A stretch of 64,000 nt of DNA from Antedon mediterranea (lineage: Eukaryota > Echinodermata > Crinoidea > Comatulida > Antedonidae), in assembly GCF_964355755.1 (NCBI RefSeq), contig NC_092672.1, forward strand, positions 1,674,001-1,738,000, given 5' to 3'. The notes under the pieces are model-generated. The model saw nothing but the letters and a program-made list of their open reading frames with translations. It made no database searches and had not been told where the DNA came from. Both the position numbers and the translations under genes were made by a program. Every line of letters begins with the position of its first letter. Position 1 is the first letter of the stretch. This document shows positions 7,114-62,100 of this stretch, one piece after another.

Positions 7114-10100
7114 TCACCTTCCCCTTCCCCGTCCTCTAAAACCGCCCCTAAAATTTCCCCTACCTCTATCATTTCGCCACTGGCCCCCACCTCTAGAGCC
7201 TCCTCTTCCTCCTCGATTACCACCCCGATATCCACCACCCCTAGAAAACCCCCTACCCATCCCTGGACCTCTATCCCTATCACCATCAAACCCTCGCTTC
7301 GTCCCTCGTGGTCCGTCTTGATCCTGAGGGAATCTCCTATCCATAAACCTCTGATCGTGCATCAGTTCTTGTTCGTCGACCCCTGACCTTGGCCCTCCCA
7401 GACGATCGTCATCTCTAGGTCGTCTTTGTCGCAAATCTTCATCGTCAGGGTTCATTCGGTTATGCATAAAATTCCTGCGATCATCATTATCAAAACTATC
7501 GTGCCTCAAGTCCATATCTCGAGGGCCATCATGTCTACGATCATTAGACTGATCAAGGTCCCTGAAGGGTGGTGGTCTTGCCCCCCTCAGATCTTCATCC
7601 TGTGCTGGAGGTTTAAAATCTCTCCCGTCAAAATCCCTTGCACCTGAAAAGCGCAAATCTTCATCATGAAATTGTTTGTCTAATCCACCAGGGAATAAAG
7701 GTCTTATATCACGTTCATGAGATGGGCGATGAGGGTCATCCCTGGGTGGGCCGTCCCAAGGTGGCCCACCACGACCTCTTGATGGAAAATCATGTGGAGG
7801 GCCTTCAATTGATGACCCATCACGATGAAGCAAATCTCTAGGTGGTCTATCTCTAAACTGCCCTTCTCTTGGTGGGCCTTCTCTGAACGATTCTTCCCGA
7901 TGCATTGCATCTCGACCATCAAGTCTGGCTTCAACCGAAGAACCTCCTACATGCCTCATATCCACATCAGAAAAACGATGTCGCATGTCCACGTCACCCC
8001 CAGTTGGTCCAGCATCATGTGCAGGAAGGGCATCAAATAGAGGTGGTATATGGCCTTCTTTAGATCCTTCATTTGATGGTACAGAGCCTGGATGTGTCCC
8101 AAGAAGACCAGTCTTAGGTGGGCCTCCTTGTGGCTTGTGAATGGATTTGGTTTTTGATAAAGGGCTTAACATAGGAGCATTTTGACCACTTTGTTTACCT
8201 GAAAATAGTAAAACAATATTTTAAAATTATTTTTTTATTTCAATTCACATTCATCGACAATAACAAAACAAAGCACTTAAACCTAGTTAAAACATTTTTT
8301 TACTTGGATAAGTGTTATGAAATACAATGAGGGTTCTGCTATATTTTTAAAATGTCAAATTTTTTATGCAAAATCTGTATACCCACTTTTCAACAAACAC
8401 AAAACATATTCAGGAATTTCTGAAAGCGTAAATGTTTCAGTTTCAGTTTAACAGCAAGCGTCTCTGTTATTACTTACCAGACTGAGCTTCCTTCTCTTGG
8501 ACCTCTTTTGGCGCAATTCCCGGTGCTTTCTGTGCTTCCCATTTCTTCTGAAAGTCCATTGGGATGGGCTTTGCATATGGCACTTTGCGTTGAGGGGTTG
8601 GTTTCAGTTGGGCTAGCTCCTCGGCGGAGGAGTCAAGTCCTGGAATGGCAGCGGCAGCATTGTCTATCAGAGTAAATGTAAAAGAATCTTTCATTCATAC
8701 TTGTTTTTTTTTTTTAATTACATTTTATTTTTAGAGGGTGACACAAAACAGTGTATGCTGACAATCAAGGGGCCCTCTTGATGAGTGACAGTGGCTGTGT
8801 GTATACTAGTACACCGGGGTAACCCCCTACTCGTCTTGAAAGATGTACTAGGTTCTTTAAAGTGCACACGAGCCAGTTATTTATGACAGTTTGGAGACGA
8901 GTCTCGTGGAGAGGCTAGATAGCCACATAAGGCTAGTGGCTAATTAAGCGGCCTCCCCCTTAACAAATCTTTCTTTTTTTTAAATCACTTTATATTTATT
9001 TATTCGTATTTTAATCAATTTCTCAAGATGTATGCAAGAATTGTACACTCTCTGCTGGCAAAATCAGGTGATCAGTTGTTATAGTATAATATGTCATCAG
9101 GTGATCAGTTGTTATAGTATAATATGTCATCAGGTGATCAGTTGTTATAGTATAATATGTCATCAGGTGATCAGTTGTTATAGTATAATATGTCATCAGG
9201 TGATCAGTTGTTATAGTATAATATGTCATCAGGTGATCAGTTGTTATAGTATAATATGTCATCAGGTGATCAGTTGTTATAGTATAATATGTCATCAGGT
9301 GATCAGTTGTTATAGTATAATATGTCATCAGGTGATCAGTTGTTATAGTATAATATGTCATCAGGTGATCAGTTGTTATAGTATAATATGTCATCAGGTG
9401 ATCAGTTGTTATAGTATAATATGTCATCAGGTGATCAGTTGTTTTAGTATAATATGTCATATTACTGTGTTTTTGGTGGTTCTTTTAACAGTATAAGTAC
9501 AGATGTTTAAGAAGGATTCATAGTAGAGAGGTCATAGGTCATAGGTCATAGTAGAGAGAATGCATCATACACATGAGTGGAGTTGTAGCTTGGTGGTTAA
9601 GATGCTTGGCTACTACTCCAAGGGTCCTGGGTTCAAGTCCCGTCACATGTCAGGATTTGTTCTAAGGACAAAATTACAACTTCACCCCCAAAGACTTGTA
9701 ATAAGACTTGAGCATCTTGTGTATGTATGTGAACCTCTCTCTGCTGATCCCTAATGATCAGCAATTGCTGGATGGATCAACCTCATTAAATATCGTCAAA
9801 CAAAGACAACAAACAATCTTTCTCTTACCTTCCTCCTGGTTGTCCTTTACTTGTTCTAAACCCATGCCTGGAATAATTGGTAACGATGTTGTCTCATCAT
9901 CGTACTCACTATCATCAAACATTCCTTGAGGTAAAGTGTTTAAGTTATACTTATCACGCATTTTATCACCCGGTCTATTACGTGTCCAGAATTTACTGCA
10001 AAAAAATATAGTTTAAATTTTATCATTTTGCAATAGAAAATACAGGTGGAGCCCGTACACTGGTGATGTGTAGATATTCTTTTATATTACATGAAAGTCG

Positions 10101-16100: not shown

Positions 16101-18194
16101 TGATGTGCCTAAATATGCTAGTGATATGCTCAAATATGGTAGTGATATGCTCAAATATGGTAGTGATATGCTCAAATATGGTAGTGATATGACATCATCA
16201 TGTCCATATATGAGCACATCATATTTTTTTGTCGCATAAAGTTTGATAGTGTAGACAGAGCTTAAGGAGTACATTTACTTACCACAACACAGAAAATTGG
16301 ACATCGGATTTTGTTTGTTGCAGTACGAACAAACTTGGTTGCTACAGCGTTGACTGGATTTTTTATCAATTCACATGGTGACACCAGCTAAAATAATAAT
16401 TAAAAGATTTTAAAGTATGGCCTCTGCTAATCTCATGAGCATATGATTTTCAAAAGGAGCAATCGTCTGGGCAACATAGCAATCTCACAGGCATTGGCTA
16501 CTGTACTCTCACAGGCATTGGCTACTGTAATCTCACAGGCATTGGCTACTGTAATCTCACAGGCATTGGCTACTGTAATCACACAGGCATTGGCTACTGT
16601 AATCTCATAGGCATTGGCTACTGTAATCTCACAGGCATTGGCTACTGTAATCTCACAGGCATTGGCTACTGTAATCTCACAGGCATTGGCTACTGTAATC
16701 TCACAGGCATTGGCTACTGTAATCTCACAGGCATTGGCTACTGTAATCACACAGGCATTGGCTACTGTAATCTCATAGGCATTGGCTACTGTAATCTCAC
16801 AGGCATTGGCTACTGTAATCTCACAGGCATTGGCTACTGTAATCTCACAGGCTTGGCTACTGTAATCTCACAGGCATTGGCTACTGTAATCTCACAGGCA
16901 TTGGCTACTTTAATCTCACAGGCATTGGCTACTGTAATTTCACAGGCATTGGCTACTGTAATCTCAGACATTGGCTACTGTAATCTCACAGGCATTGGTT
17001 ATTGTAATCTCACAGGCATTGGTTATTGTAATCTCACAGGCATTGGTTATTGTAATCTCACAGGCATTGGTTATTGTAATCTCACAGGCATTGGTTATTG
17101 TAATCTCACAGGTATTGGTTATTGTAATCTCACAGGCATTGGCTACTGTAATCATGGAGCTTTTATAGCTCCATGCTGTAATCTCATAGGCATTGGCTAC
17201 TGTAATCTCACAGGCATTGGCTACTGTAATCTCACAGGCTTGGCTACTGTAATCTCACAGGCATTGGCTACTGTAATCTCACAGGCATTGGCTACTGTAA
17301 TCTCACAGGCATTGGCTACTGTAATCTCACAGGCATTGGCTACTGTAATCTCACAGGCATTGGCTACTTTAATCTCACAGGCATTGGCTACTGTAATCTC
17401 ACAGGCATTGGCTACTGTAATCTCACCGGCATTGTATACTGTAATCTCACCGGCATTGTATACTGTACTCTCACAGGCATTCACTACTGTATTCATTGGC
17501 ATTGGCTAATCTCACAGACATTTGCTAATCTCACAGACATTTGCTAATCTCACAGACACATGATATTTTATATCACAGGCATAGGCCAACATAACATGAA
17601 TAAGGTCTACTTTACTTCATGAGTATAAAGGCCATCTGGTTGTAACGGCCGTACATCACGCTGATCTCTTTGCCAAACACGATTCTGTATATAGAAAAAT
17701 GGAATGGGATCAATGAATTTAAACATTAAAAATTAAATTTTAAAAGTTACTAAACTACTACAGTACTACTCTATTTTGTAAACATTTTGTATGGGTCGAA
17801 CCTCTTGTTACGAGAGTGTTCCTCCGTTTTAAAGGAGAGTAACCAATAAATATTATTATATTATTACAGTAAATTTAAGTTATTTTTATAAAATCTAACA
17901 AGAAAGACTGTTGAATAGACAACTTAATTGAATCATCAATTGTAGCTGACCATTGCTTAAAAAACTGTTACTGACCTCCACAAGCTTGACCACTGAAGCG
18001 TTGTAATCCACGGTTCGTCTGGTCATTGTCTTCCTCATACGCTTTCCATCGAAGTTGGTAGCATTAGTCACCTGGTCTTGGTACTGGTTCTGGCGGTTGT
18101 ACTGATGATGGTTCTTATAGAATGACGGTTTAATGTTGTACTGGGGTAACCGCGGCTTATGGAAGAAACCGGGTTGACCTACTCCGCCCTCCAT
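7114..18194 (-). CDS. WDR33: WDR33, polyadenylation-signal-binding WD40 subunit of CPSF
   Basis: Twelve coding exons: 17976-18194, 17616-17684, 16283-16387, 13741-13836, 13431-13585, 12983-13080, 12185-12463, 11535-11613, 10648-10758, 9829-9995, 8478-8663 and 7114-8198; 882 residues, all phases agree. The N-terminus has [18 protein letters not shown], the basic stretch that in human WDR33 contacts AAUAAA RNA with CPSF30. WD40 repeats fill about residues 130-410 ([68 protein letters not shown]). A conserved KVPYAKPIP follows near 486. The single last exon encodes a low-complexity D/R/P/G tail with many DxDLR motifs and a final RGG cluster. Human WDR33 is about 1,336 residues; its collagen-like segment is missing here. 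The yeast counterpart is Pfs2. The start ATG follows an acceptor, so a 5' non-coding exon is expected. The gene is divergent from SSU72. Confidence 0.95.
8740..8965. repeat. Dispersed repeat with ACCGGGGTAACCCC motif
   Basis: Lies in the WDR33 intron between exons 11 and 10 and includes TACACCGGGGTAACCCCCT. The same motif recurs at about 31395 and, inverted, at about 55908, along with CAGCCACTG-like neighbours. Boundaries are approximate. Confidence 0.5.
9062..9456. repeat. 33-bp minisatellite, 12 copies
   Basis: The unit, beginning CAGGTGATCAGTTGTTATAG, repeats almost without change inside the same WDR33 intron. Because 33 is a multiple of three, all units stay open on both strands and give long false reading frames. 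Near-identity suggests recent expansion. Confidence 0.97.
9569..9700 (+). mobile_element. tRNA-derived SINE
   Basis: The head has a pol III A-box-like TAGCTTGGTGGTTAAGATGC and, about 40 bp on, a B-box-like GGGTTCAAGTCCCG, as in tRNA genes. Anticodon arm pairing is poor and a non-tRNA body follows, which indicates a SINE rather than a tRNA gene. It is related to the sequence at 49463. Confidence 0.75.
10023..10388 (-). pseudogene. Reverse-transcriptase fragment of a retrotransposon
   Basis: A 121-codon open frame in a WDR33 intron contains [43 protein letters not shown] and [12 protein letters not shown]. This order (LD near the end of the palm, a K-P 'Y.H' block, S-H-P-like, then R-Y-x-R) resembles the C-terminal part of reverse transcriptases from Penelope-like and some LINE elements; the exact class is unresolved. 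The catalytic YxDD region is missing, so this is a truncated copy. Confidence 0.6.
10390..10565. repeat. Dispersed repeat next to the reverse-transcriptase fragment
   Basis: Begins CTTCTATCAACTAAAAGTCG and continues to CAGTACCGTTTTGATTTTA. A near-identical copy is at 26010-26200 and a shorter piece at 20950-21005, so this is probably the end of one interspersed element. Its junction with the reverse-transcriptase fragment suggests that both belong to one retroelement. Confidence 0.7.
10861..10975. mobile_element. Palindromic MITE, family 1 (WDR33 intron 9)
   Basis: Short copy, about 115 bp, with GTCTACACTATCAAATTAG facing TTGATAATGTAGACAGAGC. The central palindrome is largely deleted. Confidence 0.85.
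11690..11808. mobile_element. Palindromic MITE, family 1 (WDR33 intron 7)
   Basis: The left terminus is eroded (only ATCAAACTTTATTTG remains). The right end GATAGTGTAAACATAGCTTTA is intact with two changes. Confidence 0.75.
12503..12835. mobile_element. TTAA-type MITE, family 3 (WDR33 intron 6)
   Basis: Starts TTTAAAGATGTATTGTCC and ends GGGACAATATATCTCTAA, the same termini as the element at 4250. Its interior (CAGGTAAATAG to TGACATTAAAATGCC) is shared with the truncated copy at 50445. Confidence 0.75.
13240..13391. repeat. Two-copy direct repeat, about 77 bp
   Basis: The segment from CAACACCTTC through CAAACCATCTCTTCTCAAAC to CTTCAGACTG occurs twice in tandem with few differences, in the WDR33 intron between exons 6 and 5. 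Confidence 0.85.
13867..15866. mobile_element. 2.0-kb non-autonomous DNA transposon with 8-bp target duplication
   Basis: Flanked by the direct repeat ATTACTAC (13859-13866 and 15867-15874). Its ends are inverted copies, TAGGTATCCCAATGAAA on the left and TTTCATTGGGATACCT on the right, with one terminal base unmatched. An 8-bp duplication and TAGG-type ends fit hAT-like elements, but no transposase frame exists inside. It accounts for most of WDR33 intron 3. The interior is AT-rich with several imperfect palindromes. Confidence 0.85.
16057..16264. mobile_element. Palindromic MITE, family 1 (WDR33 intron 3), best-preserved copy
   Basis: TTAAAGCTCTGTCTACAC on the left faces GTGTAGACAGAGCTTAA on the right, followed inward by TATCAAA/TTTGATA and TGTGATGTGCC/GGGCACATCA-like blocks, making almost the whole element one hairpin. 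TTAA or TA is the probable target duplication. In this copy the inner block CTCAAATATGGTAGTGATATG has expanded to three tandem units. It carries no coding capacity. Confidence 0.92.
16466..17545. repeat. 24-bp minisatellite, about 42 copies
   Basis: The unit CACAGGCATTGGCTACTGTAATCT fills more than 1 kb of WDR33 intron 2, with a variant block (GGTTATTGTAAT) clustered at about 16990-17120 and a small hairpin (CATGGAGCT/AGCTCCATG) interrupting it near 17153. Clustered variants indicate expansion by local duplication. The apparent reading frames on both strands are by-products of the 24-bp period. Confidence 0.97.
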
Positions 18195-33349: not shown

Positions 33350-34990
33350 TCATTTTTTCACTTCTTTCAGAATTTTTCTTTTTAAAATTTCTAAACCTTG
33401 GTTGTTTTTCTCTTCATTTTCGACATAAAATACAGGTAATCCATCATTATTTTTGATGACCATATTATTAAATCTAAGATCAAGCGAAGCAGCTACAGAT
33501 ATGGCGAACTTCTCTAAGTCTCTTTTGAAGAACGATCTGCTGTGGGTACCAACGCAAAATACGGGGATGTTTCTCCTTCTAGATTTCATCAAGATTGTGT
33601 TTAACCAGTTGTTGAGACGTTTTAATTCACTTACAGGATCTCTTACAGCTTCGGCAGTATTGAAAAACAGCAAACACACGGAATTGTTTGGTACAGAATC
33701 AACTGGTACGCCACTAACGAATTCCCATAAGCTGAGCTTACATCCGAGAAACTCTGACGCAGGCATTGTGGAATAGTTAAATTTTGTGTACATTCTAGTT
33801 TCTCCTTTTTCGTAAAAATAGTACACGTGGATAATAAAAATAGCACCCACGGAAAAGTAAACGAATAAATGAGAAGAGTTCCAAAGAATGTCAACCTTGC
33901 TGGCAAACATGAAAACATATCCATAATATATGTAGAACATAGCAATGATTGTCAAGTTTGGAGTTTTGCGTTCCGCGTATTCATGGACCATGCCGACGGG
34001 ACTGTATTTGACTCCTAATGCGTACGAATTTGTTGATATTAGATTCGTGATTATGATAACAATGATTGAGAGTCGAGCCGCACTGCACATTGAGGGCCTA
34101 CTTGCTGAGATGTGTTGACATACAATAAGTAGCATTAGCACTGTAACAGACAGTATTATTTTATAAGAATGTTTAAACTGCGACTTCTCTCTCTTCATAA
34201 ATTCTTTAAAAAATGCAAATGAAATACAAAATAAAGTACCGCTGTATATACATATTGTATCTTGATAATTTTGAGGTGTTGCAGTAAGTGGAAACACTAT
34301 CAAACAAAGTCCAATTGTGTACCCAAGAGAACCACCACGCAGCCGTTGTTCCAGTCCCATACAAAACAGCAATGGTGCGACCACGAGTATTAGACAGATT
34401 AGAACACCAAGTAACGGTTGTTGACTATCAAACAACCTGATTGCCTGTAGAGATATGGCAAACTGTATCGTGTTTACAGTATCAATAAGACATTTGTTGC
34501 GATACTGCTCGTACAAGACCATTGATAACACCAACAATGTGTATATTCCCAATCTTGACTGCAATCCTACGGTTAAGATGATTAAAAGTAGGTATAAATA
34601 CTCCCTAATGTCTCCTGTTATGGTACGAATCCACCGATAATCATCTTCATTTGATGAGTTGGTTTTCTGTTTGACACGAATATTTAAGATGTTACAATTG
34701 TCGTCATATTGTACTATTCGACAAACTGGAATAAAGTCCCCGCCAGACGCATCCAAATTCGCATTTAGTACGATTACATCTTTATCAGAACTTTGATGAT
34801 CAGTTAGTTCTGAAATTGTTTTCAGCGTTTCGTATTTGTCAGATGTACTGTCTCCAAATAGTAGCAGTTTTTGTCTTTTGGTTATGTTGTTTTCAGACAG
34901 GACATCATCGCAAGTGTCAAACAAATTGCCATCTTCTTCCGTAGTCATAATAACCAAATGCTGCGCTACTGTAGGTGTACTCGATGCCAT
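33350..34990 (-). CDS. Intronless multi-pass membrane protein with degenerate Roc-like GTPase domain
   Basis: A single open frame of 546 residues. The ATG at 34990 is chosen because the frame upstream begins only at a GTG and this ATG has a good context (AAATATGG). Seen directly: residues 41-52 read KLLLFGDSTSDK, a P-loop-like start lacking the second Gly and the Ser/Thr. About nine hydrophobic segments lie between residues 131 and 393. The C-terminal 150 residues include LSLWEFVSG (419-427), VCLLFFNTAEAVRDP, LNNWLNTI, IPVFCVGTHS (near 480) and FYVENEEKNNQGLEILKRKI. From family knowledge, that C-terminal order resembles Roc domains of ROCO/LRRK-type proteins (switch II, Fn-DP-L-W, VGTH, N-x-G-i-x-x-L). 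I infer a catalytically dead Roc fold split by a membrane block. Function unknown. Confidence 0.65.
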   Translation of the reverse strand: MASSTPTVAQHLVIMTTEEDGNLFDTCDDVLSENNITKRQKLLLFGDSTSDKYETLKTISELTDHQSSDKDVIVLNANLDASGGDFIPVCRIVQYDDNCNILNIRVKQKTNSSNEDDYRWIRTITGDIREYLYLLLIILTVGLQSRLGIYTLLVLSMVLYEQYRNKCLIDTVNTIQFAISLQAIRLFDSQQPLLGVLICLILVVAPLLFCMGLEQRLRGGSLGYTIGLCLIVFPLTATPQNYQDTICIYSGTLFCISFAFFKEFMKREKSQFKHSYKIILSVTVLMLLIVCQHISASRPSMCSAARLSIIVIIITNLISTNSYALGVKYSPVGMVHEYAERKTPNLTIIAMFYIYYGYVFMFASKVDILWNSSHLFVYFSVGAIFIIHVYYFYEKGETRMYTKFNYSTMPASEFLGCKLSLWEFVSGVPVDSVPNNSVCLLFFNTAEAVRDPVSELKRLNNWLNTILMKSRRRNIPVFCVGTHSRSFFKRDLEKFAISVAASLDLRFNNMVIKNNDGLPVFYVENEEKNNQGLEILKRKILKEVKK

Positions 34991-42912: not shown

Positions 42913-42979
42913 ATTGTATGGACTCGGTTGGTGGATACATCACTTTTGAATTCACTTGTACTCGGACTTGTCAATAGCC

Positions 42980-43996
42980 ATGTTCAATAATTCTACACTT
43001 GCTGACTTCACAGTTATGTTCACATTTGGAATTTCTCTAACTTGGATTCTGACAATTATCACCATTTTAGGCAACACTTTGGTGATATATTCATTTTTCC
43101 GAGATAAATCTATTCGATCAAAACCGGCAAATGTTTTTATATTTGTTCTGGCAGTTGCTGATTTCATTGTTGGGATAATTTCTCTGCCGTTCTATAACAT
43201 CCTGGTTCTGTATGATAGTTGGATGTTTGGCGAAATCGTCTGCAAATGTATGTTGTTTTGCGATTATTCCGCTTGTGCAATCTCGTCATGTTGTATTGTT
43301 TTACTTAGTTTGGATCGCTACTGGATGGTGACGAAACATTTGCTCTACAAACATTTTATGACACATTGTAAAGCCAGAGTTTTGTCTGCTGTCGTTGTCA
43401 TCTTTTGCATTACATTTTACGGAACAACAATTTTCTTTTGGGAATTAATTTCAACGAACCCCCTACAAGATGATTCGAACTGTAGCTTACCAGTAGGAGA
43501 ACCATTTAATACTGTAATGTGCAGTACAGTATACGCAGTGACGATGTTTGTCTTAACATATCTAAACATTACCGTGTTCGTTGCTGTTGTGAATTGGTCA
43601 AACGGTAACTCACTCAAAAGAGACATTAACAAACAGAAATCGAAAACATCTAACTCTATTCTTAGCGAGAATACAACATCACCGTCAACAATATCTGTCA
43701 AGCCAGCCGATAGCAACTTGGCGATTCGGCGTTTTCGTGCTCAGAACAACCAGGAGACCAAAAAAGCGGCCATGATGCTTGGCGTTCTTGTAGTGGCGTT
43801 TCTTATCTGTTGGACGCCATTTAACATTGTTCATATTTGTATCAATATAGGTGTTTTCCAAGTAAACAGTTTTACTTGGGATGTAGTCAATTATATGCTT
43901 TGGTTTAACTCGGGGTTGAATCCTATATTATATGCATTAACTAATCGGCAGTTTAGAAAAAACTTTGTTGATATGTTTTTATGTAGGCAATGTTAA
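42980..43996 (+). CDS. Intronless class A GPCR, aminergic type (histamine H3/muscarinic-like)
   Basis: 338 residues in one exon. I start at the ATG at 42980; the frame opens earlier only at a TTG. The N-terminus carries N-glycosylation sites (FNNST). Seven hydrophobic segments are clear. Family landmarks: GN in TM1 (31-32), LAVAD in TM2, Cys88 for the disulfide, Asp95-Tyr96 in TM3 exactly 17 residues before the Asp of DRY (112-114), CWTPF in TM6 (277-281) and NPILY in TM7 (314-318). An Asp at that TM3 position is the amine counter-ion in aminergic receptors, and the Asp-Tyr pair is typical of histamine H3/H4 and muscarinic receptors. The ligand cannot be named. Its nearest relative in view is the receptor at 47486. 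AATAAA lies at 44131. Confidence 0.9.
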   Translation: MFNNSTLADFTVMFTFGISLTWILTIITILGNTLVIYSFFRDKSIRSKPANVFIFVLAVADFIVGIISLPFYNILVLYDSWMFGEIVCKCMLFCDYSACAISSCCIVLLSLDRYWMVTKHLLYKHFMTHCKARVLSAVVVIFCITFYGTTIFFWELISTNPLQDDSNCSLPVGEPFNTVMCSTVYAVTMFVLTYLNITVFVAVVNWSNGNSLKRDINKQKSKTSNSILSENTTSPSTISVKPADSNLAIRRFRAQNNQETKKAAMMLGVLVVAFLICWTPFNIVHICINIGVFQVNSFTWDVVNYMLWFNSGLNPILYALTNRQFRKNFVDMFLCRQC

Positions 43997-46859: not shown

Positions 46860-47482
46860 GGGACTCGTCCATCATAACATTTTAATTGAATATCTCCGAA
46901 GGACAATACATTAATAATTAACGATTTGAGCTTTAAAAGAAGGCCATCGCAGTAATAGTAGATCATCAGTACACAGCATTCGTATGAGGAAGTAACATGA
47001 AGTCTTCTTTTAAAAATCAATGTTTCCACCTCTTTGGTCGCAGATCATGAAGAATTAACAATTTATGCTTTAAGAGAAGACGTTTATAGGTAGTTGGAGA
47101 TCATCAGAGCCGATGTCTTATGATTAAGGAAAGAAATTATATAGAAACAAAAGTATGAAAAGGCATGTCTATAGTTTGTACAGCAATGTGTCTACCTCTT
47201 TGGTAGCAGATCATGAAGAATTAAAAATGTGTGCTTTAAGAAAAGACCTTTCTGGGTAGTTGGGAGATCAGAGCCGCTGTCTTATGACCAAGGAAAGAAA
47301 TTATATAGAAACATAGTTTGAAAAGGCATGTCTATAGTTTGTACAGCAATGTGTCTACGTCTTGGGTGGTAGATCATGAAGAACTAACAATTTTTGCTTT
47401 AAGCGAAGACTTTACAGGCAGTTGTAGGTCAGAGTCGCTTTCTTAAGGAACTACAATTATTAGTTTAATATAGTTTGAAAGC
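46860..47482 (+). repeat. Tandem ~160-bp array derived from the start of the second GPCR gene
   Basis: The segment with CAGCAATGTGTCTAC starts at 47181, 47344 and, in the gene itself, 47500; a more diverged unit (AATCAATGTTTCCACCTCTT) is at 47014 and traces of another before it. Periods are about 163, 163 and 156 bp. Each upstream unit resembles the gene from its ATG through the codons for STSWVV, but has frameshifts and stops. Confidence 0.85.
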
Positions 47483-47485
47483 CAT

Positions 47486-48553
47486 ATGTCTAGTTTGTAC
47501 AGCAATGTGTCTACGTCTTGGGTCGTAGATGACCAAGAGTTTGCAATAAGTGATGACGTCTTCGTATTTGGAATCGTCATCATTTGGATCATCACATTCG
47601 TCACCATATTTGGAAATGCTTTAGTTTTAGGCTCATTTATCCGAGATGAAAAAATACGATCAAAACCTGCGAATGTTTTTATTTTGGTAATGTCGATAGC
47701 TGACCTCACGATAGGTCTTGTCTCTCTACCATTATGTAATATCTGGATCATGCAAAGTGTGTGGACTTTCGGTGAAATAATCTGCAAAGTTTATTTATTT
47801 CTAGATTATTTAGCATGTGGGGTATCTTCAGGATGCATTTTTTTACTAAGTTTAGATCGATACTGGATGGTGAAGAAAAATTTAAAATATAAATCGTTTA
47901 TGACTCATAGAAAGGCTTGGATATTCGCTGCAATCGTAATAAGTTATTTCGTTATTTACTACGTCGTTACGGCTTTCTTCTGGGAATCCATAAGCGGTAC
48001 CGATAACATTGATTATTCAGAAGAATGTGAATTGAACAGCAAGAATAACTTAACCTTCAACATCATTGAAATTTGCGTCGAATTTTCACTAACGTTGATT
48101 GTACTGGTATATCTAAACGTACATGTTTTTATTGCGGTTAGTAATTGGTCGACGGGTAAATCTCTTCAGAAGAGCATTGTGAGCAAGAACAACTCGGAAG
48201 GTAACACAGCGTCAGAGAAACTCGAGTCAATTCGGCGATCTCATAATGAAAGTATGCAAATGCGAAAGGCCGCAACTATGCTGGGATCACTCGTATTAGC
48301 GTTTCTCATTTGTTGGACTCCTTATCACATTGTACTTATTTGCGGTACTCTAGAAGTAGAGGGTATTAATGATTTTGTATGGACGACTGTAGGCTACGTC
48401 TTATGGTTTAATTCCTCGTTGAATCCAGTTATATACGCTGCGACTAACGTCCAGTTTCGGAAGAATTTCATCGAAATGTGTTGCGGAAAAAAAACTAAGT
48501 TAAATAACAATTCGCGAACATTTTCTCATCCGCCGTCCAATGAAATGCGTTAA
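47486..48553 (+). CDS. Intronless class A GPCR, aminergic type, paralogue of the 42980 receptor
   Basis: 355 residues in one exon. It shares with the first receptor RSKPANVFI after TM1, FGEI.CK before TM3, LSLDRYWMVxK, AFLICWTP in TM6 and QFRKNF after TM7, so the two are tandem duplicates. Landmarks: Asp107-Tyr108, 17 residues before the DRY Asp (124-126), CWTPY (276-280), NPVIY (313-317), and Cys100 with Cys181 for the disulfide. N-glycosylation sites are present at NVS near the N-terminus and NLT in the second outer loop. The third inner loop is short and the tail is basic, then serine-rich. The ligand is unknown but an amine is expected. The start codon lies inside a tandem array whose other units are broken copies of this 5' end. 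Confidence 0.9.
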   Translation: MSSLYSNVSTSWVVDDQEFAISDDVFVFGIVIIWIITFVTIFGNALVLGSFIRDEKIRSKPANVFILVMSIADLTIGLVSLPLCNIWIMQSVWTFGEIICKVYLFLDYLACGVSSGCIFLLSLDRYWMVKKNLKYKSFMTHRKAWIFAAIVISYFVIYYVVTAFFWESISGTDNIDYSEECELNSKNNLTFNIIEICVEFSLTLIVLVYLNVHVFIAVSNWSTGKSLQKSIVSKNNSEGNTASEKLESIRRSHNESMQMRKAATMLGSLVLAFLICWTPYHIVLICGTLEVEGINDFVWTTVGYVLWFNSSLNPVIYAATNVQFRKNFIEMCCGKKTKLNNNSRTFSHPPSNEMR

Positions 48554-56100: not shown

Positions 56101-59100
56101 TGTTTTTTTTTTTTAATATGGCATTTAGAAAACTAAACATACCTTATATCTACCAACGATTGTACATTGTGGGGGATTTGGAAAATGTGCCGTTGTACGC
56201 TGAATGAATAAAGCTATTTTAGACTGGTCTCCATCTTGGAATACATCAAGATTTGGAAAGAAAAGACTCCAAAAGATAGAGCCATCAGTTGAATCTATAC
56301 CGTATACCTACAAAGAAAACATTCACATTTATGTGTTATTGAATAAGTCATCTATCTCATTTAATTCATCAGATACAGTCAAACTACATTCTTTGACTAT
56401 ATTATATATATATTAATTTTATACAAAATAATATTTATACTTTAAATCGTTGTGTAGATTAGTTACCTTGCCATATTTGGAAAAAAAATTATAATCATTT
56501 CATGCAAAATAAAATGTAAACTTTGTATCACTGTGTAGATTGGTTACCTTGCCAGATTTGGAAACAACGTTAATCATCTTATGCAAAATAAAATTTAAAC
56601 TTTAAATTGTTGTATAGATTTAGTTACCTTCATTTTATGCAAAATAAAATGTAAACTTTAAATCGTAAAATATTAATCACCTTGCCAGATTTGGAAACTA
56701 CGATAATCATTTTATGCAAATTAAATTCATCTCTTGTAAGATATTCTTCATCGTCATCATGGTTAACAACAACACGTGAGGGCTCTGTTTTGCGATCTTG
56801 ATGGCTACCGTGCTTTAACCGTCTTTGTAAGTGAGCCACGTATGACTGCAAAATTTAATAAAAAGATGATTATCACAATATTGATTTATTGGAAAAATTG
56901 CTTAAAATACAACCAATACATTAAAACATTAATTTACTAAACTAGAATTTTTTTTAAAATAATCTAAATAATTTGGATTAAAAATGTTTACATTTTCAAA
57001 TCTGAATAATCAGAATTGCATGCCAAATAAACCGTTTATTATTATTTATTTATTATTATATTATCAAAATATTTTAAAATTTACCTTTATTTGATCAAAC
57101 TGTGTATTCAGACGTCTCACAAACATTTCCAAAACAGAAACTGTAAAAAAAAAATGAAATAAACTTATTATTTGTTGTTACTATATCACATTATAAAAAA
57201 ACATATACCAACCAACCAACTAACTGCTTAAAATTTAGACTTACTCTGTAATTTACCACCAAATTCATCTTCAAACTTAGCTTCAGTGTCAGAGACCGGA
57301 AGATCAACCATTTGTACCACAGCTACATGTGCCAGTCCTTCTTCTCTGCACCAAATCACCCTGCCACCTAAAAATGCAAATTTATTCATACAACATAATT
57401 ATTCGTGCGAATCAAACATTCCTGAGTTCAATTTGGTTGAACTTTTTTTCTGGTTTATTCGATTTTCTAAACTACATTATACCCACACTGCGCTTCTCAT
57501 GTTGATACATCACATACCTGATTGCTGTATCATGGTAACCGCGTCGTCTGCAGTTTCCAGCAATACACGGTAGCTAAGCTGCTGATCCTTTTTATGAAAG
57601 AGGTATACCGAAACCTGAAATAAAAGAAAAAAACATTTCAACGCTCAGTAAAGTGAACCTATTTTTATTAACTTTTCAATGTACCAATAGATTAAAGTAA
57701 AGTAACCTGTTTCTTTTGGTTTATTAATATCACTTAAGTAAAAAGTCTCTTAACTCAATTCTTTTTAGGACTTTTGAATGCACTAATAATAATAAAGTGA
57801 AGTTTTGAAAATATATCCAAAAAATTATTTCTGATTTTAAAAACTAATAAACTTTTAATCAAACCTTTTCTGGACTTCCATGATTTTTTTCTATATCAAC
57901 TTTTTGTTTCATGTTTTCTATTTCAGTTCCGTCGACAGTATTAAAACACCGAATCTCCACTTCCTAAAATATAAATAAAACAACTGATATGAGAACAATA
58001 TTAACTTTACCCTTTTTGAGAAATGTATAAATAAATAATAAATATTTTTTAAGTTGTAATCACATACAATATTTTCGCTTTTTTTTTTGTATCTCCATTA
58101 AGATCCAGACACTGATACCCACAGCATTGTCATTTTGTATCTCCATTGAGATCCAGCCACTGATACACACAGCATTGTCATTTTGTATCTCCATTGATAT
58201 CTAGCCACTGATACCCACAGCATTGTCATTTTGTATCTCCATTGAGATCCAGCCACTGATACCCACAGCATTGTCATTTTGTATCTCCATTGAGATCCAG
58301 CCACTGATACCCACAGCATTGTCATTTTGTATCTCCATTGAGATCCAGCCACTGATACCCACAGCATTGTCATTTTGTATCTCCATTGAGATCCAGCCAC
58401 TGATACCCACAGCATTGTCATTTTGTATCTCCATTGAGATCCAGCCACTAATACCCACAGCATTGTCATTTTGTATCTCCATTGAGATCCAGTCACTGAT
58501 ACCCACATCATTGTCATTTTGTATCTCCATTGAGATCCAGCCACTGATACCCACAGCATTGTCATTTTGTATCACCATTGAGATCCAGCCACTGATACCC
58601 ACAGCATTGTCATTTTGTATCTCCATTGAGATCCAGCCACTGATACCCACAGCATTGTCATTTTGTATCTCCATTGAGATCCAGCCACTGATACCCACAG
58701 CATTGTCATTTTGTATCTCCATTGAGATCCACCCACTGATACCCACAATTGTCATTTTGTATCTCCATTGAGATCCAGCCACTGATACCCACAGCATTGT
58801 CATTTTGTATCTCCATTGAGATCCAGCCACTGATACCCACAGCATTGTCATTTTGTATCTCCATTGAGATCCAGCCACCCACAGCATTGTCATTTTGTAT
58901 CTCCATTGAGATCCAGCCACTGATACCCACATCATTGTCATTTTGTATCTCCATTGAGATCCAGCCACTGATACCCACATCATTGTCATTTTGTATCTCC
59001 ATTGAGATCCAGCCACTGATACACACAGCATTGTCATTTTGTATCTCCATTGAGATCCAGCCACTTATACCCACAGCATTGTCATTTTGTATCTCCATTG

Positions 59101-62100
59101 AGATCCAGCCACTGATACCCACAGCATTGTCATTTTTTCAGTGCTTATTGTTTTTTGTATCTCCATTGAGATCTATCCACGGATACCCACATCATTGTCA
59201 TTTTGTATCTCCATTGAGATCCAGCCACTGATACCCACAGCATTGTCATTTTGTATCTCCATTGAGATCCAGCCACTGATACCCACATCATTGTCATTTT
59301 TTCAGTGCTTATTTTTTTTGTATCTCCATTGAGATCCAGCCACTGATACCCACAGCATTGTCATTTTTTCAGTGCTTATTTTTTTTTGTATCTCCATTGA
59401 GATCCAGACACTGATACCCACATCATTGTAATTTTTTCAGTAATTTGCCTTTAAATTTATATATATAATATATTCTTTATAAGCTAAGAACTAGAAAAAA
59501 GATTTTTTTAATGAATAATAAACAAATAAAACTATTAAAATAAGTACTTACGATACGATACAATAAAACTTTATTGTCACAGCCCAAATATAGTAGTGAT
59601 ATGCCCAAATATGGTAGTGATATGACATCATCATGTCCATATACGGGCACATCACATGCAAACATGGCAATATACAGTTGTGAGATATGGTTCCTTAGGT
59701 ACACTCGAGTTAGTATGAATATAACATAAATTACAAGACTAAAATAAATAATAAACAGATAAATGTAACACTTACACTTTCTTTGACCTGAGTAACAGTT
59801 GTAATTATTTTATCATCTGGCAAATCGCCAGCTCCAATTGTAGTCTCCTGCAAGCAATTAAAAGTAGTAGTCTTTGAAGTATTCCTTACAAAATCACATA
59901 GTAATGCCAATAATACATAATAAAGTAACAGTATGCAGTTTTTGTCACAGTAAAGTGTGTTGTACCAAAACAAAATGTGTAATTTAATCAACTTTTGGCC
60001 TATATAATAAATATTAAACCATACCTTTGTAAATTGCCTGATAACCTTAACATCGCCCTCTATTGACACAAGCAGCTGGTTATCGGAGGCTAATTTCAGA
60101 ATAACTATAGGCAAATCATCTGCAGCAGCTCGTAATTCTAGTTGAGTGATATCGAACTTGTGATCTTCACTTGTTAACACCTGTAGAAACAATCCAACAA
60201 ATGCAAGCAATTTCCTGTATTATGTTTTGGAACCAAAAGACAGACCCATTTAAGCTCTGTCTACACTATCAAACTAGTTTTCCACAAAAAAATGTGATTT
60301 GCCAAAATATGGTAGTGATATGACATCATCATGTCCATGTATCACATTTTGTTGTCACATAAAGTTTGATAGTGTAGACAGAGTTTAAGAGACCATGAGT
60401 GGATCATGTATTCCACAACCATCACAATCACCTCCTTCTACTGTCCTTGTGTAAATATTCTATTTATGAATACACTTTACAATTTCTCACATAAACTTTT
60501 TAAATGTTCTTCAAACATAAACTATATTTTCTTACAGAAAGAGGTGTTGTCTGAAAAACATTTCCCTCTCTTAGGTTGGCAACTTGTAGTTCACGGTTGG
60601 TTGAATCAAAGCACACCATGTGACCATTTCTAAGTATGATGCAAGCAGACTGGACCGTTGCCCAGGCAGCAGGGAATGAATTCTGCTTAGAAAAAAAATA
60701 TATAACATTTAATTTTTATAAGGAAAATTTCTGTCAAACGAATGGCAGAATAATATGTAAACAATATGACTAACGCTTACTAATGGGACACCTTGTTGGT
60801 TTCTGAAGTTACTAAAGCTGTCTACACTATCAAACTAGTTTGACAAAAAATGTGTAATGTGCCCAAATATGGTAGTGATATGCCAAAATATGGTAGTGAT
60901 ATGACATCAAGGAGTCCATATATGGGCACATCACATTTTTTTTGTCACATAAAGCTTGATAGTGTAGACAGAGCTTTAGGATTTGACTGCTTGTCAGTCT
61001 CTCAAAGACATGAAATAAAAGAAGATGCCAAAACACAAACCTCATTAGAAAGTGTGCCATCTTGAAGGCTGTAGAACTGCACTGTGTAGTGAGAGCTTTC
61101 AACAAGACCAACAATGACAACCTCATCATTGTGTTGTGACATCCATTTGTATTGCACATTTCCACTGTAAAATTAATAAAATAAAATGTTTAGGCTGTGG
61201 AAAGACTGACTTAATTACACCTAGAAGAGGGTAGGGGAAGGGGATTGATTGATCCCTATATAAGATATTACAGGACTGACTGCAGATCATGAAGCAGAAG
61301 CTAATCCACATTTCAAAATGTAAATATAATCATTCTCATCAGAACAATGTTTCTTCAATGTGCAATATTAAATACCTGTATGTACACAGAAACAAACTAC
61401 TTTACGTCCCATCTGAAGGACGTGCTGCACAGAAAGGTTCATCATTCAATTTCAAAACTTACTCTGTACTCAGTTTTGCTGTCCATCTTTCTTCGCCAGT
61501 TTTTGTTGACAAAACATGCAAAGAATTATCTACCAGTACAGCCAACAAGTTATCATTTTCTTGAGAGCAAATAACAGACACTGTCCAACTATATAAAGAA
61601 AAATAATAAATAATAATATACAAATAATGAATGTTTATGAGTGTAATGGTACAAATAATGGCATGAGGTGAATGGAAAGATTGTATTTCAACAAGGCGAT
61701 ATTGCATGGTGGGAACCAAACCTATAGAGTGCGCTGTCTCTAAATTCTTTGTTGCTGCTGCCAATGTTCAAGCACTGTTTTTTCTTCAGAGTATTTACCA
61801 GTGTTTTCTTACCTTTGTTTAGGTTCAGCAATGGTTGATTCCCATCGAACGAATCCAGTACTTACTGCCCATGAATGAACCTTACTTCCACCCCCTGATA
61901 CAGTAATAAGATCTGTAAAACAAAAGAAACTGTTTTTAATTTATAATCTGGCAGTTTTCATCTTTTTTGTAATAATACTTTTTAATAAGAATGCATAAAA
62001 AACAATAAATTGTATTTCAATTGTTTAATTTTCTTATATATATTAAATAAGGTTTTGTATGGAGTAAGTGCAGAATCTGTTTGGGCTTTAGCCTATTCTC

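Follow-up and report, generated by a model that had tools for sequence, protein, structure and literature searches.

A probable degenerate member of a lineage-expanded membrane Roco family in the crinoid Antedon mediterranea

Can a Roc-type GTPase domain be interrupted by an integral membrane domain and still be one domain? The question is raised by a single open reading frame in the window analysed here, by which is meant the whole 64,000-nt stretch of A. mediterranea DNA. The ORF (33350..34990, minus strand) has its ATG at 34990, its last codon at 33353 and its stop codon at 33352-33350, and encodes 546 aa. A first-pass annotation had read it as a Roc-type fold split by a membrane domain after G1, and all of the motifs it named are present in the ORF where it had placed them: KLLLFGDSTSDK (residues 41-52), LSLWEFVSG (419-427), VCLLFFNTAEAVRDP (438-452), VGTHS (480-484), and ENEEKNNQGLEILKRKI (524-540). 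The parts, all on the minus strand, are a putative N-terminal Roc half with the beta1, alpha1 and switch I/beta2 region (residues 1-125; 34616..34990), which includes a degenerate G1 (P-loop) region, GDSTSDKY (residues 41-56; 34823..34870); a polytopic membrane block (about residues 131-393; 33812..34600); and a putative C-terminal Roc half (residues 400-546; 33353..33793), with LSLWEFVSG as its G3/switch II counterpart (33710..33736) and VGTHS at the G4 position (33539..33553). The explanation that we consider probable, with good confidence, is that this gene belongs, in shortened and degenerate form, to a lineage-expanded membrane Roco family, whose intact members carry a ten-helix domain in the interswitch hairpin of Roc and a COR-like region after it.

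The window protein alone is not very informative. It matched no Pfam family and no PDB chain in searches of those collections. The check proposed with the first-pass annotation, a profile search with the two halves joined in silico and the membrane block left out, found no Pfam Roc or Ras match, and the protein is tied to Roc through its paralogs only. AlphaFold single-sequence runs, without relatives, gave pLDDT values of just 39 and 45, which counts against the preferred explanation; Foldseek searches with these poor models returned no match under E 0.04, with HRas and the LRRK2 Roc structure 2zej among the insignificant ones.

Elsewhere in the window, two neighboring single-exon ORFs on the plus strand (42950-43996 and 47474-48553; 348 and 359 aa) resemble, by eye, related class A (aminergic-type) G-protein-coupled receptors. 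There are also long tandem-repeat tracts at 8984-9496, 16433-17509, and 58098-59231, with several frames open on both strands; their coding appearance is probably a repeat artefact.

The genome (354 Mb in 18 contigs) was searched with the window protein. One close paralog, on contig C1, is 67% identical and likewise a single ORF; some 21 other relatives are more distant. Full-length relatives number 16, with ORFs of 934-992 aa. Nine of these are at 4.574-4.647 Mb on contig C11, four at 17.545-17.603 Mb on the same contig and on the strand opposite to the first array, two at 19.235-19.244 Mb, also on C11, and one at 8.842 Mb on contig C4. The arrays contain five more copies that are broken, and there are remnants on C4 and C5. 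The family is thus arranged in tandem arrays whose copies undergo birth and death, and the membrane-split architecture is a property of the family, not of one odd gene. The window sequence could not by itself prove a link to Roc; the paralogs do, which confirms the earlier observation. Another group of Roc matches (loci L026-L049) was set aside: those that were translated are ordinary small GTPases, mainly Rab- or Ras-type, and many are single-exon. A narrow scan of prokaryote and viral contigs, with two short patterns in each, found no relatives. PADLOC and NCBIfam searches gave small_GTP only and nothing further.

In the 16 intact ORFs the order of motifs is G1, switch I, membrane block, G3, the G4 position, and the COR-like region. 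G1 is GDHGAGKTSTCRRLQ, with the core GDHGAGKTS; switch I is EEPSTIGIET (STIGIET), followed by a segment with NSKWCEVTNTPLEDYESSAAWW and then the membrane block; and G3/switch II is ARLSLWDFAGQEMYYNTHHLFM (LSLWDFAGQ, WDFAGQE). Downstream of G3 are VFNAVEAISNPxRHIKRLQFWLQ, then VFLVGTRR at the G4 position, then FFIENxFN at the G5 position. A canonical G1 (GDxxAGKTS) and G3 (WDF[AS]GQ) are found in every intact member (16/16). The THxD motif of G4 is absent from all 16, which have VGTRR or VGTQR instead, and the G4 Asp is kept in place only at loci L005 and L019. Its loss in the other 14 counts against the preferred explanation, and suggests that nucleotide specificity may be relaxed.

Four intact members were scanned with the Pfam Roc profile (PF08477), and scored 66-75 bits, against a cut-off of 27 bits, in two stretches around the membrane block. 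The best PDB sequence matches of the intact family are LRRK2 Roc chains. In phmmer alignments, LRRK2 Roc crystal sequences match the C4 member at residues 43-92 and 460-559, with only about five residues of the LRRK2 chain between the two aligned stretches. Since LRRK2 Roc aligns on both sides with so little between, the insert appears to lie in the beta2-beta3 (interswitch) hairpin. Structurally, the short LRRK2 gap would correspond to the turn between beta2 and beta3, and as the two strands of a hairpin are neighbors, a domain inserted there need not break the sheet. By Roc profile the intact members are classed as Rocos, even though their Roc domain is interrupted, and these alignments, together with the 16 paralogs themselves, bear out the first reading of a Roc-type fold split by a membrane domain after G1.

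Roc is followed in the intact members by about 330 conserved residues. COR-A aligns weakly with these at the expected place (14-20 bits; the cut-off is 35.3), which also counts against the preferred explanation, and no LRR or kinase was found in the membrane-split family. The COR-A profile (PF16095) scores at some 149 places in the genome, many of them similar stretches of about 58 residues, with concentrations at 19-25 Mb on contig C3, 16-19 Mb on C4, 12-14 Mb on C5, 14-15 Mb on C9, and 2-3 Mb on C1. They may belong to a repeat that contains a segment of this kind, or else to a COR-like gene family of very large size.

How much of the window protein can be matched to this family? Its C-terminal part scores 59.3 bits (E 2e-20) against the profile of the 16 intact members, where the best shuffled decoy reaches 11 bits, and hhalign gives E 1.4e-15; the homology of the C-terminal Roc half can be proposed with high confidence. 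Tested in isolation, neither the N-terminal part nor the membrane block has a significant profile match, another point against the preferred explanation. In context the outcome is different for both. When the window protein and its C1 paralog (the window pair) are aligned with the intact family, profile against profile, the score is 124.1. Shuffling the columns of residues 1-125 never gave as much in 100 trials (maximum 113.9), nor did 100 trials with the membrane block shuffled (maximum 117.0). The entire architecture therefore appears to be common to the window pair and the family, with moderate confidence for the N-terminal part and for the membrane block, whose homology is significant in context only.

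The membrane block, which separates the Roc halves, is about 300 residues long in the intact family and has ten hydrophobic segments on average over the family. Two or three of these are weak in the window pair, where the count is 8-10. The first-pass annotation had suggested about nine; a polytopic block was correctly recognised, while the count is better put at ten for the family and 8-10 for the window protein. The difference matters, because with an odd number such as nine the Roc halves would be kept apart by the membrane, making the fold impossible. With the N-terminus set inside, the loops predicted to be inside have a mean of 15.3 Lys+Arg, versus 3.9 for those outside, so that the block obeys the positive-inside rule. 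Taken with the even number of segments, this puts both Roc halves on the same side, where they can meet in the cytosol. No relatives of the block were found in Pfam, in the PDB, or in this genome outside the family.

The topology bears on an alternative in which the two Roc-like parts are not one GTPase domain at all, the P-loop module and the half-Roc acting separately or pairing between molecules. The weak score of the window pair's N-terminal half when taken alone would fit such an arrangement. In the intact members, however, the two stretches complement each other within one Roc profile and in the correct order, the G motifs other than G4 are conserved together, and ten positive-inside helices return the chain to the side it started from. 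Two separate parts are accordingly an unlikely reading, and one interrupted Roc domain is preferred for the intact members; a domain swap, with pairing between molecules, would still be compatible with these observations.

The window pair differs from the intact family in several respects. At G1, GDHGAGKTS of the family is replaced by GDSTSDKY in the window protein and GDSRSGKY in the C1 paralog, and at G3, WDFAGQ is replaced by WEFVSG and WEFDKG, respectively. Both have lost the Ser/Thr of G1, the Asp of G3, and the Gln of switch II, and five residues are deleted in switch II just after the G3 counterpart. The residues for Mg-nucleotide in G1 (GxxxxGK[ST]) and G3 (DxxG) are missing from the window protein, which would thus be unable to bind nucleotide. 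Both genes stop at the Roc/COR boundary and lack COR; a search of the window for a remnant of COR was negative, with no COR-like stretch above 5.3 bits in any of six frames. In its sequence the window protein is a Roco by descent only, with no Roc-profile match, no COR, and no canonical G motifs.

These losses, in a family with many broken copies, could be taken to mean that the window gene and its C1 paralog are decaying pseudogenes that are open by chance. Against this, the two are open over 538-546 codons and have the same truncation point, and the dN/dS ratio between them (NG86) is 0.37 overall, at a dS of about 0.55. By region the values are 0.31 for the N-terminal part, 0.53 for the membrane block, and 0.21 for the C-terminal Roc half; around the degenerate G1 (residues 36-62, only 27 codons) the ratio is 0.13. 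Decay under chance opening is quite improbable given these figures. Rather than being recently wrecked copies, the two genes encode a conserved protein of non-canonical type, and the purifying selection on it makes a maintained pseudo-GTPase likely for the window gene. The pseudo-GTPase character proposed in the first-pass annotation can be kept for these two genes, which have lost key residues, but does not extend to the family, where G1 and G3 are canonical.

The membrane block might also be thought an in-frame intron or alternative exon, removed to give a soluble Roco. This is very improbable. The block is open and in frame in all 16 full-length copies, its ten-helix topology with charge bias is consistent, and dN/dS is 0.32-0.52 in each of the eight pairs tested; it is coding on these grounds. 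For the other regions, the same pair test gave 0.09-0.34 (N-terminal half), 0.11-0.56 (C-terminal Roc half), and 0.19-0.39 (COR).

The shared coding stretch does end in what looks like a splice donor, AAG|GTA or GAG|GTA, in each of the 13 copies readable at this point. A short phase-0 3' exon is predicted behind it, with its CAG acceptor about 100-470 bases downstream, and could be recognised in three copies: at about 433-483 of locus L063, about 393-443 of L064 (reverse complement), and about 785-825 of L062. In two C11 copies it would encode FSFTCSRP..FTQTS[LV] followed by a stop, and the third has a shorter relative of this. The intact family thus probably has a short 3' exon behind a conserved donor. 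The window gene had been described as intronless, with retroposition as a possible origin. The relatives' single-exon core agrees with the first part; retroposition is not needed, because the relatives form tandem arrays with the core on a single long exon and a probable short 3' exon.

That the Roc resemblance is due to chance is hardly credible, although the window protein has no Pfam match alone or even joined, for the profile scores far exceed those of shuffled decoys and the intact relatives scanned score above the curated threshold for Roc.

If the preferred explanation of an interrupted Roc domain is right, the Roc halves of intact members would fold together on the cytosolic face, and these proteins would be nucleotide switches of a membrane Roc-COR type. 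The path from switch I through beta2 and beta3 to switch II would be joined directly to the membrane domain. The two switches that sense nucleotide are linked by the interswitch hairpin, so a membrane domain at this position would be well placed to drive the switch or be driven by it: a change in the membrane domain, whether from a ligand, a lipid or a partner, might alter the nucleotide state, or the reverse. COR, the dimerising output in other Rocos (PMC6337361), could relay the signal through dimerisation here as well. In the window pair, GTP cycling has probably been lost, and these proteins may be fixed-state partners or regulators of active members, or may work through the membrane domain alone.

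A wider proposal would be a class of integral-membrane GTPases with a ten-helix receptor- or transporter-like domain in the interswitch hairpin, the nucleotide state being set by membrane-side events without a separate exchange factor. The class would have multiplied into tandem arrays, with immune or chemosensory reception as a conceivable role, and would include conserved pseudo-GTPase members like the window gene. This is offered tentatively, and in its full extent is on the doubtful side.

Should the fold prove true, a G domain would be interrupted between its switches by an integral membrane domain, which would couple the membrane directly and mechanically to the nucleotide switch. It would show the tolerance of the Ras fold to insertion, and in this one genome active and pseudo-GTPase members would form a natural series. 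The Roco family would be widened, with a bearing on LRRK2 and Parkinson's disease; for LRRK2, communication between membrane and GTPase is still debated.

Among the nearest known systems are the LRRK2-type Roc-COR proteins of the Roco family (human LRRK1/2 and MFHAS1/MASL1, and bacterial RocCOR), which likewise have the Roc profile, G1, switch I, and the G3 motif WDFAGQE, followed by a C-terminal COR to which the corresponding region of the intact members is weakly similar. In known Rocos, however, Roc is contiguous, with no polytopic membrane domain inside it, whereas here it is interrupted by about 300 residues with ten helices. A search through the text of two reviews (PMC6337361, PMC4104024) turned up no such membrane domain, and no description of a membrane-split Roc was found in the open-licence literature. 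Brown algal ROCO proteins are also lineage-expanded, and their ROC domains reach up to 467 aa through non-conserved insertions (PMC11378527), but no polytopic membrane domain inside ROC is reported there. Ectocarpus has ROCOs with C-terminal regions resembling transmembrane proteins, according to work cited in PMC4104024.

Within A. mediterranea, two LRR-Roc genes on contig C3 (L056, 25.7025-25.7075 Mb, and L057, 25.7445-25.7485 Mb) have an uninterrupted Roc; they are near-identical in sequence, which suggests a recent duplication.

A mechanistic analogy is found in the Arf-type GTPases, where the interswitch beta2-beta3 hairpin couples nucleotide state to membrane contact. Arf relies for this on an amphipathic helix at its N-terminus and on a register shift of the interswitch; unlike the membrane-split family, it has no inserted integral membrane domain.

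A further parallel is in the same genome. Ordinary, intron-bearing Rocos on contigs C4 (3.297-3.303 Mb) and C6 (30.12-30.13 Mb) have G1, switch I, an extra segment, WDFAG, and a COR-A exon. In the C4 gene G1 is followed by TDGIA...DNWEKV, further soluble exons, and FSIWDFAG; in the C6 gene a comparable soluble stretch precedes SIWDFAGQ. Both share with the membrane-split family a W-E-x motif after switch I (NWEKV, compared with SKWCEV), and the extra segment that they carry between switch I and G3 lies where the membrane block does, but is soluble rather than membrane-spanning. Insertion at this position therefore has a precedent within the Roco family.
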